NCBI RefSeq assembly: GCF_012027395.1
Contig: NZ_SNUJ01000001.1
Location: forward strand, 434,001 to 498,000
Length of the DNA stretch: 64,000 nucleotides
Reading direction: 5' to 3'
Source of the DNA: Thermococcus sp. LS1
Lineage (GTDB): Archaea; Methanobacteriota_B; Thermococci; Thermococcales; Thermococcaceae
Shown: positions 49,747-56,023 of the stretch, piece after piece
Position numbering within the stretch: the stretch's first letter is position 1
Layout: each line of letters begins with the position of its first letter
Notes under the pieces: model-generated
Told to the model about the DNA's origin: nothing
Seen by the model: only the letters and a program-made list of their open reading frames with translations
Database searches by the model: none
Translations under genes and position numbers: made by a program

Positions 49747-51156
49747 GTGGAGACCCCAAACCTTGACTTCCTGTTTTACCCCAAGAGCGTCGCGGTTATA
49801 GGTGCGTCCAACGTTCCCGGCAAGATTGGAAACTCGATAATGCGCTCGATAACCCTCAACTTCGATGGTAAGGTCTACGCCGTCAACGTCAAAGGTGGCG
49901 AGGTTGAGGTCAACGGGAGGAAGTTCCCCGTTTACAGGAGCATTAAGGATATTCCCGACGAGGTTGACGTCGCGGTCATAGCCGTTCCGGCCAAGTTTGT
50001 TCCTGATGTCATCGATGAGTGTGGCGAGAAGGGCGTCAAGGGTGCGGTCGTTATTTCCGCCGGCTTCAAAGAGGCTGGAAACATAGAGCTTGAGGAAGAG
50101 CTCGTTAAGAGGGCTAAGAAGTGGGGCATTCGCTTGGTTGGCCCCAACTGTCTCGGTGTTACCAACCTTGAGAACGGCTTCGACTGCAACTTCAACCCGC
50201 CGGAGAGGCAGGCGAGGCCGCCCTTTGGAAAGATTGCTTTCATGAGTCAGAGCGGTGCTTTTGGAGCCGCCATTCTCGACTGGGCCGCCAACCACATGAT
50301 AGGTATGAGCAAGTTCATCAGCCTTGGAAACATGGCTGATCTCGATGAGAGCGACTTCATGGCCTACCTAGGCGAGGACCCCAAGACCGGAGTTATCACC
50401 GGTTACATCGAGGGCGTCAAGGACGGAAGGAAGTTCTTCGAGACGGCCAAGGAGGTTACCCTCAGGAAGCCCGTCATAATCATCAAGGCCGGAAGAACCG
50501 AGGCCGGCGCTAAGGCGGCGGCTTCCCACACTGGCTCGCTCGCAGGCTCGTACAAGATATACGAGGCTGTCTTTGAGCAGACTGGAGTTCTCTCGGCCAA
50601 GAGCATGAGGCAGCTCTTCAACTACGCCAAGGCCCTTGCAATGCAGAAGCCGGCAAAGGGCAACCGCGTCGCTATAGTCACAAACGGCGGCGGCGCTGGT
50701 GTCATGATGAGTGATGGTTTGCTTGAGCGCGGCATGAAGCTCGCCGAGCTGAGCGAAGAAACCAACGAGAAGTTCAGAAAGGGCATAGAGGAAGGAAAGC
50801 TCCCGCACCACATGAGCTACAAAAACCCGATAGACGTCATAGGTGACGCCCCGTCCAGCAGGTACGAGATAGCCATGCGCTATGCCCTTGAGGATCCGAA
50901 CGTTGACGTTCTCGTTGTCATAGCCCTCTTCCAGAGCCCGGCTTTAGACGAGGGGATAGTTGACGCAGTAGCTAAGATGCAAGAGTACGGCAAGCCCATA
51001 ATCTTCGTCGCTCCTGGAGGAGACTACCCGCACAGGATGGCAAGGAATATCGAGCTCAAAGGCGTTCCGGTCTACGAGACTGTTGAGGATGGAGTTGATG
51101 CTGTTTATGCCCTTGTCAAATACGGTGAGTGGCTTAGGGAGAATGGAAGGCTTTGA
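49747..51156 (+). CDS. acdA: acetate-CoA ligase (ADP-forming) alpha subunit
   Basis: Converts acetyl- or acyl-CoA, ADP and phosphate to acid, CoA and ATP, the main substrate-level ATP step of sugar and peptide fermentation in Thermococcales. 469 residues. CoA-binding SVAVIGASNVPGKIG (about 15-29), VGPNCLG (about 136), phospho-His loop AAASHTGSLAGS (about 257-268) and the NPIDVIGDAPS segment (about 359). GTG 49747 follows GGAGGTG; the in-frame GTG at 49738 lies inside that site. No beta subunit adjoins, as is usual for this order. An inverted repeat CCGAAA-AAC-TTTCGG (49721-49735) sits at the predicted transcription start. Confidence 0.93.
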   Translation: METPNLDFLFYPKSVAVIGASNVPGKIGNSIMRSITLNFDGKVYAVNVKGGEVEVNGRKFPVYRSIKDIPDEVDVAVIAVPAKFVPDVIDECGEKGVKGAVVISAGFKEAGNIELEEELVKRAKKWGIRLVGPNCLGVTNLENGFDCNFNPPERQARPPFGKIAFMSQSGAFGAAILDWAANHMIGMSKFISLGNMADLDESDFMAYLGEDPKTGVITGYIEGVKDGRKFFETAKEVTLRKPVIIIKAGRTEAGAKAAASHTGSLAGSYKIYEAVFEQTGVLSAKSMRQLFNYAKALAMQKPAKGNRVAIVTNGGGAGVMMSDGLLERGMKLAELSEETNEKFRKGIEEGKLPHHMSYKNPIDVIGDAPSSRYEIAMRYALEDPNVDVLVVIALFQSPALDEGIVDAVAKMQEYGKPIIFVAPGGDYPHRMARNIELKGVPVYETVEDGVDAVYALVKYGEWLRENGRL

Positions 51157-51348
51157 GCCTTCTTTTTACCATAAAATCCTTTTTATTGTGATTTTGTAAG
51201 TTCAAAATAGTGACGCTAGGGGAGTTTTTGAAGGAAAATTGGGGCAGAATAAGTTGAGGTTTAATCTCTAATCCATGATTACTTTTTGAAAGCCTTGCTC
51301 CTCCAGGCCACGAAGAGGTCAGTTTATTGAACTTTTTGTAGGAGAATT
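51157..51348. other. AT-rich gap after acdA
   Basis: 190 bp between convergent acdA and the small Cys-containing protein gene. T-rich tracts just after acdA (TTCTTTTTACC, CCTTTTTATTG) fit archaeal termination. Nothing else seen. Confidence 0.35.
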
Positions 51349-51768
51349 TCACCCGATGGAACCACACTTTGAAAGGATATTTTTCTCGTCTTCTTTGGTT
51401 GAGTTTTCCAAGGATATAATCTCCCAGTTTCTCATGTCGATAGTTGCTTTGTAAACAGAGTAATTATCAGTGCAGGCTTCTAGATTGGGCCCTATGTGGA
51501 TGAAAACTACTGCTGTACAGGTTGTTATGTTGAAACAACCGACATGGCCACAATTTGTCATGTTGGGAAACTTTTCTGAGGTTATTTCATCTGCAATAGT
51601 GTCAAGTTTGGCAACATTGATGGAGCAGTTCTGTATTCCAGCAGAAGATGTGTTCGTATGATTTATCACTTTTCCATAGTCTTCGTGATCGATGAACTTT
51701 GGAACTTTGACGAAGAGATAGGTAGCGGCCAATAAAAAGATAACAAAGAAGAAAAGAAGCTTTTTCAA
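51349..51768 (-). CDS. membrane-anchored Cys-containing protein, unknown
   Basis: 139 residues: an N-terminal membrane helix (about 3-20), then an extracellular domain with six Cys (NCS, NCGHVGC, TTC, EAC, KCG) and several NxT/NxS sequons. The ATG overlaps the stop of the upstream 343-codon gene (ATGA), so the pair is translationally coupled. AT-rich codon use, unlike the flanking acdA and trpS genes, marks an accessory insertion. No family recognised. Confidence 0.6.
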   Translation of the reverse strand: MKKLLFFFVIFLLAATYLFVKVPKFIDHEDYGKVINHTNTSSAGIQNCSINVAKLDTIADEITSEKFPNMTNCGHVGCFNITTCTAVVFIHIGPNLEACTDNYSVYKATIDMRNWEIISLENSTKEDEKNILSKCGSIG

Positions 51769-52796
51769 GAGTTATCCCCCCTGATCGTTACATTTATCCC
51801 GATAGGTTCTGGATAATAATAGACAGGTTTTCCAGACTTTTTAAATTTCTCTGCGATCGATTTTGGCAATCCAAACTTTGAACTGTACTTGTATATTGCG
51901 TTTGGGTTAATTTTGTAAACTGGTATCCTTTGGCCATTATATGTAATGTAGAATTTTGTTATGTCTCCATGATATCGTATCCGATAATAGACGTTGATTA
52001 TTTTATTTAGGACTCTATCCGTTGTGCTTTGTATTGATATTACTTCTGGGTCTCCAGAACTTGGAAAGACGTCTATCATGACGTCAAATGCTACTTCTGT
52101 AAACTCATTGGAATTATACGCCCCGTAGACTCTGTCTTTCACTGAAAATTCTATGAGCTTATTTGTTTCTGTATCTATCCAGAATTTTAGATAATGGGAA
52201 CATTTTGACTCTCCAACTGGACCCAAGTCCCATTCGGCTGTTAGACTGCCATCCATAGTTTTGTCTCCGTTTAGAAACTCGTCTATGCCTTGCTTCATTT
52301 CCTTGGCTATTTCTGCCGCAGATATTGCAATACCTGCTTCCCAGAATAATTTGGAAGCTGCTATCTCTAGCAAATCACCTATGACGTCGGCAAAGTAATA
52401 ATCTATTCCTGGATGTGGCCAAGCACCAAGAACTTTCTTGTCGGTCTGACTGCTTAGTATGTAGAAGTAATCATGTCCTCCTACTTTATTTATGTACACA
52501 CCCATTTTGTGAATAGCAGGCCATGAACCAAATACGGGATTCTTTGCGGCTCCTGTAGATGTCACTTTAAAAACGTATATTGCACGCTGTTCTCCGTCCT
52601 CATATCCGACAAAATACCCGCTGTATTCTAGTACTGCGCTGTTGTATATAACGTACGATCCAAAGTCCTCATGGTTAACTTTGGACCATTTGGTTCCTAC
52701 AGGGGCCGCTAGTGCATAACTCGATATTATTACTCCTAATATGCACAACAATGTTAACATCTTTTTATGTTTAATCACGAGACATCGCCAACACAT
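51765..52796 (-). CDS. secreted protein, unknown function
   Basis: 343 codons from ATG 52796; GTG 52778 (then MIKHKKMLTLLCILG) is an equally good or better start. Either gives a signal peptide ending near SYALAAP. The mature part is beta-rich, with one helical stretch (about 135-170, AASKLFWEAGIAISAAEIAKEM), few Cys and no membrane anchor. AT-rich composition (TAT, AAA, ATA codons). Forms an operon with the small Cys-containing protein downstream. Not recognised. Confidence 0.6.
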   Translation of the reverse strand: MCWRCLVIKHKKMLTLLCILGVIISSYALAAPVGTKWSKVNHEDFGSYVIYNSAVLEYSGYFVGYEDGEQRAIYVFKVTSTGAAKNPVFGSWPAIHKMGVYINKVGGHDYFYILSSQTDKKVLGAWPHPGIDYYFADVIGDLLEIAASKLFWEAGIAISAAEIAKEMKQGIDEFLNGDKTMDGSLTAEWDLGPVGESKCSHYLKFWIDTETNKLIEFSVKDRVYGAYNSNEFTEVAFDVMIDVFPSSGDPEVISIQSTTDRVLNKIINVYYRIRYHGDITKFYITYNGQRIPVYKINPNAIYKYSSKFGLPKSIAEKFKKSGKPVYYYPEPIGINVTIRGDNS

Positions 52797-52887
52797 TGAT
52801 ATATTAAATTGTTTTTAAGATTTACTGTTTATCGTTTAATATTAAGGGTAGTAGCATAAAAGTCGTAATTTTCATGACTTCCAAAAA

Positions 52888-52895
52888 CTTTAAAT
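52888..52895 (+). promoter_or_regulatory. TATA box of the trpS transcript
   Basis: CTTTAAAT, 27 bp upstream of the short ORF at 52919, with a purine-rich stretch (CCAAAAA) before it. No better TATA lies between here and trpS, so the trpS leader should be close to 100 nt. Confidence 0.6.
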
Positions 52896-52918
52896 CCTCT
52901 TCCTTCCTTTCTCTTCCC

Positions 52919-52948
52919 ATGCTTGGTGATTGTTTTTGGCCTTGGTGA
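52919..52948 (+). CDS. candidate Trp leader peptide of trpS
   Basis: Nine codons plus stop, reading MLGDCFWPW. Two of nine residues are Trp, which is very rare by chance. Its ATG falls about where transcription should start (TATA centre 27 bp upstream), so it would be translated as a leaderless message. It ends 65 bp before the trpS start and is in a different frame. The intervening leader has a possible AAGCC/GGCTT stem (52948-52972) and a mini-ORB palindrome. A role in Trp-responsive control of trpS is inference. Confidence 0.45.
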   Translation: MLGDCFWPW

Positions 52949-52986
52949 AGCCTTCCTCTTCTGCCCCGGCTTAGTCTGGAGTTTCG

Positions 52987-52999
52987 TTTCCACTGGAAA
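52987..52999. repeat. mini-ORB palindrome in the trpS leader
   Basis: Perfect TTTCCACTGGAAA about 20 kb from oriC, just before the GGAGGTG ribosome binding site of trpS. Confidence 0.65.
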
Positions 53000-53013
53000 T
53001 GGAGGTGCTTTGA

Positions 53014-54168
53014 ATGGACGAGTTTAAGGTTACCCCATGGGACGTTGAGGGATTGGTAGACTACAACAAGCTGATAGAGGAGTTTGGAACGAGTCCTTTG
53101 ACGGACGAGCTGCTTGAGAAGACCGCCCAGCTGACCAAGAGCGAGCTGCCGCTCTACTTCAGGAGGAGGTTCTTCTTCTCCCACAGGGACTACGATAAGG
53201 TTCTCCAGGACTATGAGAGCGGAAAGGGCTTCTTCCTCTACACCGGGAGGGGTCCGAGCGGGCCGATGCATATAGGCCACATCATACCCTTCTTCGCGAC
53301 GAAATGGCTCCAGGAGAAGTTCAACGTGAACCTCTACATCCAGATAACCGACGACGAGAAGTTCCTCTTCAAGGAGAAGCTGAGCTTTGACGACACCAAG
53401 TACTGGGCCTACCAGAACATCCTCGACATCATAGCTGTCGGCTTCGACCCGGACAGGACCTTCATCTTCCAGAACAGCGAGTTCACCAAAATCTACGAGA
53501 TGGCCATTCCGATAGCTAAAAAGATAAACTTCTCGATGGCGAAAGCCGTTTTTGGCTTCACCGAGCAGAGCAAGATTGGAATGATCTTCTATCCGGCTAT
53601 TCAGGCCGCGCCGACCTTCTTTGAGAAGAAGCGCTGTTTAATTCCAGCGGCCATAGACCAGGACCCCTACTGGAGACTGCAAAGGGACTTTGCCGAGAGT
53701 CTTGGCTACTACAAGACGGCGGCTCTGCACAGCAAGTTCGTACCCGGTCTGATGGGCCTTGAGGGCAAGATGAGCGCCAGCAAGCCGGAGACGGCCATCT
53801 ACCTGACCGACGACCCGGAAGAGGCCGGCAAGAAGATATGGAAGTACGCCCTGACCGGCGGCCAGCCGACGCTCAAGGAGCAGCGCGAGAAGGGCGGCAA
53901 CCCGGAGAAGTGTGTCGTCTTTAAGTGGCTGGAGATATTCTTCGAGGAGGACGATAAGAAGCTCATGGAGCGCTACCACGCCTGTAAGGCTGGAGAGCTG
54001 ACCTGCGGCGAGTGCAAGCGCTACCTCATCAAGAAGGTGCAGGAGTTCCTCATCGACCACCAGAAGGAGCGTAAGGAAGCCGAGAAGAAGGTTGAGAAAT
54101 TCAAGTACACCGGTGAGCTCGCTAGAGAGCAGTGGGAGAGGAGCATCCCGGAGCCGCTGAGGGGCTAA
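53014..54168 (+). CDS. trpS: tryptophanyl-tRNA synthetase
   Basis: Charges tRNA-Trp; class Ic synthetase of archaeal/eukaryotic type. 384 residues. Signature HIGH exactly conserved in GPMHIGHIIPF (about 83-93) and KMSAS (about 252-256); the AIDQDPYWRLQRD region (about 212) recognises the adenylate/Trp. A C-terminal CxxC-like cluster (CKAGELTCGECKRY) lies near 327-340. ATG 53014 follows GGAGGTG. The leader is unusually long and contains a nine-codon ORF with two Trp codons. Confidence 0.96.
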   Translation: MDEFKVTPWDVEGLVDYNKLIEEFGTSPLTDELLEKTAQLTKSELPLYFRRRFFFSHRDYDKVLQDYESGKGFFLYTGRGPSGPMHIGHIIPFFATKWLQEKFNVNLYIQITDDEKFLFKEKLSFDDTKYWAYQNILDIIAVGFDPDRTFIFQNSEFTKIYEMAIPIAKKINFSMAKAVFGFTEQSKIGMIFYPAIQAAPTFFEKKRCLIPAAIDQDPYWRLQRDFAESLGYYKTAALHSKFVPGLMGLEGKMSASKPETAIYLTDDPEEAGKKIWKYALTGGQPTLKEQREKGGNPEKCVVFKWLEIFFEEDDKKLMERYHACKAGELTCGECKRYLIKKVQEFLIDHQKERKEAEKKVEKFKYTGELAREQWERSIPEPLRG

Positions 54169-54239: not shown

Positions 54240-56023
54240 ATGCGGAGGGCATCGCTTCTGGTCCCTCTTGTGGTCTTCATGGTCATAGTGAGCGGCTGTC
54301 TCGGCGGTGGGAATACCCCGACTAGCACGCCTTCGAGTGCTTCTTCACCCGCGCTTGAAACCACTTCAACGACTTCCGTGGAGCAGGTTCCCCCTGTGAA
54401 GTTCCTCTATCCTGAGGAGCCAAAGGTCGTTAATCTGAGCTATGGGGAAGTCCAGGGATTTTTCGTGGAGAAATATGCCAAAGTTCCATACTCCCAGCAT
54501 GGCAACATAACAGTCAACTACACCAACGGCGTCTTCAGGGGAAGATACGAGTTTGTTCTCACCAATTTCACCTCAAGGACACTTTATCTGGCACTTCTCG
54601 TCACCCCAAACGGCCCCCTAACCCTCAACATTACCATTGAGGGCGTTCCGCTTGAGCTTTCCCGTATGAACGTTTACCGGTGGATTGATGATGAGGGCTT
54701 TGGTGTTGGGTTTTACGCGGTCAACGTTTCGACGAACTTCACCACCCTAAAAGGCGTTGTCACCTACGATTTCCGCTACCTCGAAAATAAGGACTATATA
54801 CGCCAGATGTGGGAGCGTGACGTTCTCATTGGAACGGACTTCTCTTGGTGGGAGTTTGCGTCGAAGAACGCGACTATTACTGTCACCCCCATCTGCCCAA
54901 AGACACTGTTTTCGTGCTCTTTGACTACGGAGTCGTCCGCAATGGTTCAAAGGTGGTCTACACTTCACCATTATACCCCCACCTCGGTTTCTCGCTTTAT
55001 CTCCAGAACCTCGGCTGGAAGGAGCTGTCGGTTAATGGCGTCAACGTGACGGTTTACTATTCGGGGAGCTGCTACAGCGAGGAGGGTCTAAACCTCGTCC
55101 AGAAGGAGCTTGAGTTCGCCTTTGGGCTGTACACGAACATTACTGGAATCAGACCGGTTGAGCGGTTCGACGTGGTCTTTGTCCCAGGATTTTTCTACCG
55201 TTCAAGGGAGATATTTGGGGAGATGGCCAAGGGTCTTGACGTGAAGGGAACGTTCCTCGTGGACTGTCCGGTGGATATGGAGGATTCCGCAACCAACTAT
55301 GCCTCCCTGTTCTTCCACGAGCTGGCCCACGAGTGGTTCGTCCACTACGCAAGCTTCCATCGCTTCAACGAGGCCTTTGCCGAGTTCATGAGGTTTGAGG
55401 CCTATTCCCGTTGGAACCCCGAGGGATTCCCCGCATGGGCAAACAATAGGGAGAGAAGGGCGATAATGGAATCCGGAAACTTCACCTACTACCAGGCCAT
55501 GAACGCTTCGATTCCCTACTGGAAGGTGCATTCCGTCCTCTATTACAAGGGTGCCTTCATACTACGCTCTCTCCGCTTTGTCCTTGGAAATGAAACGTTC
55601 AATGAGATTCTCCACGAGGCGCTAACGGAGTGCCACGGTTCTTACTGCACCGTCCAGGACTTCCAGCGTATAGCCGAGAACGTCTCCGGCGAAGACCTCG
55701 ATTGGTTCTTCAGCGAGTGGTTTAACTCGACGCTGCTGCCGGACTACACGGTTGAGAACCTCACGGTGGCCAATGAGAGCGGCTCGTACAGGCTCATCTT
55801 TAAGCTCGTTGACAGGAACAACTTCACGATGCCCGTTTACGTTAGAATAGTCACGGAAAACGGCAGGTTCGTGGATAAGACGGTCTGGGTGGAAAATGGC
55901 CTCGGGAGCGTTGATGTCACCCTGGAAGCTAAGCCAACGACGATAATAATCGACCCCGACGAATGGATGGCCAACGTGAACAGGGAGTTCGATATCAATG
56001 GCATCGCTGTGAAGGTCAACTGA
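54240..56023 (+). pseudogene. M1-like metallopeptidase lipoprotein, frameshifted
   Basis: Starts with a lipoprotein signal (VSGC lipobox, Cys about 20) and Thr/Ser-rich linker. The frame from 54240 runs out of register at a C5 tract (54886-54890) and stops at 55049; the second frame carries on to 56023. Joined with one base change it would be about 594 residues, collinear with the intact paralogue that follows. Gluzincin motif HELAHEW, with the Glu of FNEAFAEF only 13 residues after the second His. So it is either a recent pseudogene or an intact gene with a sequence error. Probably an extracellular, membrane-anchored aminopeptidase. Confidence 0.75.

Follow-up and report, generated by a model that had tools for sequence, protein, structure and literature searches.

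Organization of the trpS leader in Thermococcus sp. LS1

The trpS gene of Thermococcus sp. LS1 lies within the 64,000-nucleotide stretch of DNA that was analysed (the window) and encodes a tryptophanyl-tRNA synthetase (TrpRS), which scored 749.6 bits against the NCBIfam tryptophan--tRNA ligase model (cut-off 644). It is preceded by a short open reading frame (mini-ORF) with the codons ATG CTT GGT GAT TGT TTT TGG CCT TGG TGA (52919-52948), whose stop codon is separated by 65 nt from the trpS ATG at 53014 (Table 1). An earlier note on this DNA had described a TATA box at 52888, an ATG at 52919, the reading MLGDCFWPW-stop, the 65 nt gap and the SD sequence GGAGGTG, and all of these were found in place when the sequence was re-read. 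The 3' end of the LS1 16S rRNA is CUCGAUCACCUCCU.

Table 1. Features of the trpS leader region of Thermococcus sp. LS1 (window coordinates).
Feature	Coordinates	Strand	Evidence
TATA box CTTTAAAT	52888..52895	+	Sequence; TTTAWA 23-24 nt 5' of the mini-ORF ATG in 81/82 genomes
Mini-ORF in the 0 frame (MLGDCFWPW-stop), starting at the predicted 5' end of the transcript	52919..52948	+	ATG and near stop in 82/82 leaders
Internal SD-like site GGTGATTG, complement of the 16S 3' tail CGATCACC	52925..52932	+	16S end; duplex -9.7 to -13.1 kcal/mol, 82 leaders
Putative slippery P-site codon TTT, then T	52934..52936	+	TTT 80/82, CTT 2/82
Hungry codon TGG (Trp), invariant	52937..52939	+	82/82
Second Trp codon, variable	52943..52945	+	S, H, N, L, F, R, D, I or stop in relatives
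+1 frame ORF (putative post-slip frame), GLGEAFLFCPGLVWSFVSTGNGGALNGRV-stop, overlaps trpS start	52938..53027	+	Open in 82/82; stops 5' of SD 0 vs 14.6 expected
trpS SD GGAGGTG, within the +1 ORF	53001..53007	+	Sequence; GGAGG-ATG spacing 8 in 53/64 and 7 in 11/64 measured
trpS, tryptophanyl-tRNA synthetase	53014..54168	+	NCBIfam tryptophan--tRNA ligase

Upstream, the gene for a CoA-binding protein (end at 51156) is separated from the trpS promoter by a region of ~1.7 kb (51134-52796) that contains two ORFs of 343 and 139 aa on the minus strand. Because the end of the CoA-binding protein gene adjoins the trpS TATA box in several relatives (e.g., G014, G026 and G029), this region looks like an insertion. 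Downstream of trpS, two overlapping plus-strand ORFs, 54240-55049 (with a lipoprotein-like start) and 54845-56023 (with a HELAHEW-type metallopeptidase motif), look like a single gene split by a frameshift or a sequencing error.

Conservation of the mini-ORF in Thermococcaceae

We gathered the trpS upstream regions from 82 Thermococcaceae genomes representing six genera; counts refer to readable leaders. The mini-ORF was present 5' of trpS in all of them (82/82), with its ATG located 23-24 nt 3' of TTTAWA and a C at position -1 in 81/82 leaders each. In the transcript map of T. onnurineus, ~95% of leaderless mRNAs have an ATG and a pyrimidine at -1 (PMC5316973). Both the TATA spacing and the C at -1 fit a transcript start at the A of the mini-ORF ATG, which is therefore likely. 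An apparently leaderless ORF at a fixed distance from the TATA box, as proposed for LS1, is therefore a conserved property of these leaders.

The conserved layout was AUG-N-GGUGRU-NGY-YUU-UGG-(1-3 codons)-stop. Following the ATG and any second codon, codon 3 was GGT in 82/82, codon 4 was GGT (48) or GAT (34), codon 5 was NGY, and codon 6 was TTT (80) or CTT (2); the base after codon 6 was always T, and TTC was absent at this position from all 82 leaders. Codon 7 was TGG in every leader (82/82). The 0-frame stop was located two codons past TGG in 77 leaders, one codon in 3 and three codons in 2, and was TGA in 72, TAA in 7 and TAG in 3. The expectation that the Trp codons would be conserved was correct for codon 7; codon 9, the second Trp codon of LS1, is replaced elsewhere by S, H, N, L, F, R, D, I or a stop codon. 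Because codon 9 is free to vary among the 82 leaders, as are the residues encoded by codons 2 and 5, the alignment indicates that neither the tandem Trp codons nor the peptide is the target of selection.

These patterns also bear on whether the leader could be a nascent-peptide arrest switch similar to TnaC, sensing free Trp or a peptide. The leader peptide is indeed short, with conserved G, F and W; however, different residues occur at positions 2, 4 and 5 (C, R, G; L, P, R, F, H, Q) although nucleotides are fixed, codon 3 is GGT in 82/82 with no other Gly codon used, and the corresponding peptides of ileS and leuS (see below) are different. We consider such a switch extremely unlikely.

In genome scans, ATGNNNGGTGRTNGYYTTTGG occurred approximately once per genome, with 0 control matches, and nearly all occurrences were trpS leaders; the remaining few were other sites of the type ATGACNGGTGATGG. 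For GGTGRNNNNYTTTGG, 10 matches were found at other genome sites vs 8 in the control, and none of these sites had the trpS-type layout.

Both reading frames of the trpS leader are constrained

The sequence GGUGRU and the following YG may pair with the 3' tail of 16S rRNA through up to 8 bases. With the genome's own 16S tail, the predicted duplexes of the 82 leaders ranged from -9.7 to -13.1 kcal/mol (mean -12.0), compared with -13.3 kcal/mol for the trpS SD and -1.8 for 9-mers from the remaining leader. The distance from the GG of this SD-like site to the P-site codon is 7 nt, which would become 8 after a +1 slip; the commonest GGAGG-ATG spacing at trpS is also 8.

A ribosome slipping at UUU|U would enter a +1 frame that was open as far as the trpS start in 82/82 genomes, whereas the other two frames were closed by stops in all 82 leaders. 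The +1 ORF included the trpS SD and ended between -6 and +11 nt relative to the trpS start, with one case at +40. Between the slip and the SD (45-63 nt, a multiple of 3 in 77/81), no +1-frame stop was observed vs 14.6 predicted by 566 spanning-tree substitutions (P ~5e-7, an approximate value that takes no account of ancestry). The 0-frame stop is completed by a T that never changed, even though this base occupies the wobble position of +1 codons that do vary. The stop-free +1 frame and the invariant T together indicate that both the 0 and the +1 frames are constrained, as a frameshift switch requires. Purifying selection on the +1 peptide was not detected (50 synonymous changes vs 52.9 expected), which indicates that the +1 frame is selected for passability alone and that its product is irrelevant. 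A second overlapping frame (TTG GCN YTN GTN, +2) was considered and rejected: it looked conserved in part of the genus and was closed in Pyrococcus-like and other genomes.

We detected no excess secondary structure in trpS leaders (mean z 0.03 over 14 leaders). An Rfam scan of 52700-53100 yielded two chance matches, neither of them a T-box, and assigned no Rfam family. The strong conservation of the first 21 nt might still reflect an RNA or DNA element, such as a protein-binding site or a noncoding RNA, in which reading frames are incidental. This is very unlikely given the lack of an Rfam family and of excess folding, the frame-specific absence of stops, the three-base indels, and the presence of cognate codons at three genes.

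Similar leaders at ileS and leuS

Inspection of the regions upstream of other synthetase genes in four genera revealed an equivalent layout at ileS and leuS. The ileS leader reads ATG AGG GGG GAG TGT TTT ATC, with a cognate Ile codon (ATC) in the A site, and the leuS leader reads ATG AGG GGG GAG TGT CTT CTC, with a cognate Leu codon (CTC). No comparable leader was found at serS, proS, thrS, hisS, glyS, valS, metS, cysS or argS in the four genera. A pattern scan detected such leaders in 89/94 genomes (73/74 good ones), approximately two per genome, with 2 control matches in total; the scan pattern fixes the last codon, so that the conservation of this codon is partly search-selected, and the find in four genera is independent of the pattern. 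We examined 45 ileS and 42 leuS leaders, the identities of ileS and leuS being assigned by NCBIfam. The layout with an Ile or Leu codon was noted at loci L305, L313 and 80 more (L303-L314 and L327-L406) of Thermococcaceae, outside the window, and occurs in nearly all members of this family.

Among leaders in which the gene start was found, the +1 frame reached it in 41/41 for ileS, most frequently through an ATGA overlap, and in 40/41 for leuS, the remaining one ending 15 nt short. The +2 frame did so in 5 ileS and 6 leuS leaders. Because the TGA of ATGAGG closes the +1 frame, this frame had its own ATG, GTG or TTG 5' of the slip in no ileS leader and in one leuS leader. The SD-like site in these leaders is AGGGGGGA, located 5-6 nt from the slippery codon (AGGAGG register). 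The shift-site bases are UUU-A in ileS and NUU-C in leuS rather than UUU or CUU followed by U; re-pairing would be imperfect here, and it is less clear at exactly which codon the shift would occur. Some ileS and leuS leaders (L305, L313 and L314) also contain CCCCC(C)TATTCTGG farther 3'; this stretch, not seen at trpS, is the complement of the mini-ORF AGGGGGGA and may add a layer of RNA pairing at these genes.

That the leader ORFs of three synthetase genes each contain the cognate codon, and that some ileS and leuS leaders show the CCCCC(C)T complementarity, is also what might be expected of a classical leader-peptide attenuator, in which stalling at Trp codons alters RNA folding and hence termination or access to trpS. 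The earlier note had favored a mechanism of this type, but it is not supported by the alignment, in which neither the second Trp nor the peptide is conserved. Leaders of trpS showed no excess folding, and the z values were ~-1.0 for ileS and -0.3 for leuS leaders. In addition, an attenuator would not explain why a single codon, and not a run, is invariant, or why the +1 frame stays free of stops up to the gene start. We regard it as quite improbable. The other part of the earlier proposal, that Trp in the mini-ORF serves as a sensor of charged tRNA-Trp for trpS, is most likely correct, with codon 7 as the sensing codon.

Occurrence in Korarchaeia and Caldarchaeales-like archaea

The site was also identified outside Thermococcaceae. 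In Candidatus Korarchaeia, the class of Methanodesulfokora, it was present in 17/17 genomes with a canonical TrpRS. In 15 of these the +1 frame runs in frame into trpS, and in 2 it forms an ORF that overlaps trpS, the arrangement seen in Thermococcus. In the order of Geocrenenecus (Caldarchaeales-like), approximately half of the genomes had the site, 8 with the in-frame form and 2-3 with the coupled form. The leader peptides in these groups are different (MTGDLLWP, MPGDFLWP, MQGGSLWR, MGEYLWL, MGGYLW, MAGGSLWTAQKQ and MGDRLWQR); the layout G-G-(T/G)-G-NNNNN-YTT-TGG is retained, and the slippery codon is likewise followed by T. The motif was absent from part of the Caldarchaeales-like group and from other archaea examined, and no site was found at trpS in the more distant, Methanofastidiosa-like families of the class Thermococci.

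In two Korarchaeia loci, L256 (Methanodesulfokora) and L266, the TrpRS frame contains no ATG, GTG or TTG from the preceding stop to a point 20 or more codons inside the conserved domain, and the L256 protein scores above the NCBIfam tryptophan--tRNA ligase cut-off. Because a usual start codon is missing nearby, these two TrpRSs seem to need +1 frameshifting if translation does not begin at a rare start codon. The predicted N-terminus of the Methanodesulfokora TrpRS is MMGDRLGSVSPWEV or MGDRLGSVSPWEV... Automatic annotation probably shortens the L256 and L266 genes or calls them pseudogenes.

The TrpRS tree showed several switches among in-frame, coupled and absent forms. Korarchaeia-like TrpRSs (L020-L028) are up to 79% identical to the Thermococcus TrpRS and located beside it in the tree, which suggests a transfer of the TrpRS gene, possibly with its leader, between this group and Thermococcaceae.

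An alternative possibility is that the +1 ORF is an ordinary upstream ORF that begins at the GUG within GGUG (transcript nt 8) and is coupled to trpS with no frameshift. A +1-frame GTG is present as part of GGTG in all Thermococcaceae trpS leaders, and the frame is open from there; in this family, initiation at GUG could replace slippage, which counts against a switch. However, such an ORF would leave unexplained why the ATG and the T of TTT-TGG are invariant, why a 0-frame stop lies near, and why Trp, Ile and Leu codons occupy the equivalent position. A +1 start of this kind 5' of the slip is missing from ileS and from all but one of the leuS leaders, as well as from TrpRS in L256 and L266, and in several in-frame relatives (L250 and L213) the SD is located at a normal distance from the ATG, not from the GTG. 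This possibility is therefore unlikely.

A proposed hungry-codon frameshift switch

From the observed anatomy of the leader, its conservation, the constraint on both frames and the cognate codons at three synthetase genes, we infer slippage, a response to uncharged tRNA and a coupling step; the leader is most likely a switch based on programmed +1 frameshifting at a hungry codon, similar in operation to the autoregulation of bacterial RF2. According to this model, the ribosome would initiate at the AUG on the 5' end of the mRNA. With UUU (or CUU) in the P site, the SD-like GGUGRUYG would be free to pair with the 16S tail, and UGG would occupy the A site. When Trp-tRNA is ample, UGG would be decoded and translation would terminate 1-3 codons later, in LS1 65 nt before trpS. 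When Trp-tRNA is scarce, the ribosome would stall at UGG, and the peptidyl-tRNA would slip by +1 (from UUU to UUU). The slipped ribosome would then translate the 20-36 codons of the +1 frame (in LS1 yielding the predicted trans-frame peptide MLGDCFGLGEAFLFCPG...) and finish at the trpS start. In the simplest output, its arrival would boost trpS translation through coupled reinitiation. A possible extra output is shielding of the nascent mRNA from premature termination by aCPSF1/FttA; the idea of mRNA protection was discussed previously (PMC8116511). Korarchaeia and Caldarchaeales-like archaea mostly have trpS itself as the +1 frame, and in Thermococcaceae ileS and leuS, Ile (ATC) or Leu (CTC) would be the hungry codon.

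SD-like pairing may pull the ribosome toward +1, as has been proposed for RF2 with its shorter spacer, since a slip would change the spacing from 7 to 8, the commonest SD-ATG spacing of trpS. Several other features count against a switch: the spacer between the SD-like site and the slippery codon exceeds the 3 nt of prfB, the P-site tRNA of ileS would shift from UUU to UUA with an imperfect fit, and trpS has a strong SD of its own. The absence of the motif from some Caldarchaeales-like and other archaea, and the finding of no purifying selection on the +1 peptide, weigh in the same direction. Taken more generally, these leaders are probably archaeal amino-acid sensors, in which a hungry codon cognate to the synthetase, located in a mini-ORF, would cause a +1 frameshift toward the gene of that synthetase (TrpRS, IleRS or LeuRS); for TrpRS of some Korarchaeia the frameshift would be obligatory.

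Relation to known systems

The closest features are found in the +1 frameshift of prfB (RF2), which also has an internal SD-like site, a slippery CUU or UUU, a slow A-site codon that senses the product of its own gene, and a productive +1 frame. UUU is known as a slippery codon in some prfB genes, and the layout of the RF2 shift site has been described (PMC12421855). In the leaders analyzed here, the SD-like site is GGUGRU at trpS (82/82) and AGGGGGGA at ileS and leuS, CUU or UUU is followed by U at trpS, and the +1 frame is open; in most Korarchaeia, as in prfB, this frame is the gene itself. In contrast to prfB, the A-site codon is a sense codon for Trp, Ile or Leu (TGG in 82/82 at trpS) rather than UGA, the system is archaeal, the product is a tRNA synthetase, the +1 frame of Thermococcaceae ends on the gene start, and the AUG is apparently at the 5' end of the mRNA. 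Because the leader has no stop codon in the A site and lacks the 3-nt spacer of prfB (AGGGGG to the slippery codon; 7 nt after GG at trpS), it falls outside the prfB type, although its mode of operation would be alike.

Bacterial attenuators (trpL, ilv and leu leaders) similarly use a short leader ORF with codons for the amino acid of the downstream gene to read charged tRNA. They differ in that trpL has several cognate codons and mutually exclusive terminator and antiterminator hairpins, whereas here codon 7 alone is invariant, the 14 folded trpS leaders show no terminator/antiterminator fold, and the output would be a change of reading frame. T-box leaders are likewise located 5' of synthetase genes, use a one-codon key and sense uncharged tRNA; however, no T-box or specifier-loop structure was found in the scanned region, and the sensor would be a translating ribosome. 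The conserved peptide of TnaC-type leaders has no counterpart here. Programmed frameshifting in archaea has candidates in magnesium chelatase and the G-T proteins of halophilic viruses (PMC5009743, PMC3711429), but these are mostly -1 shifts at A- or G-rich slippery heptamers and are unlinked to amino-acid supply. In open-access papers, we found no report of frameshifting at archaeal trpS.

Implications

A 2016 review of frameshifting pointed out that hungry-codon frameshifting could make proteins during starvation and that no examples were known (PMC5009743). The transcriptome study of T. kodakarensis described attenuators and riboswitches in archaea as being without direct in vivo experimental support, and reported long, unexplained 5'-UTRs for 11 aminoacyl-tRNA genes (PMC4247193). 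If the proposed switch is real, it would represent a functional use of hungry-codon frameshifting as well as an archaeal translational attenuator, and would offer a mechanism for some of the 11 long 5'-UTRs. It would also tie amino-acid control to RF2-type recoding across domains and provide a system that can be tested in a genetically tractable archaeon. Finally, the annotation may be wrong for trpS start sites and, in some Korarchaeia, for the whole TrpRS gene.
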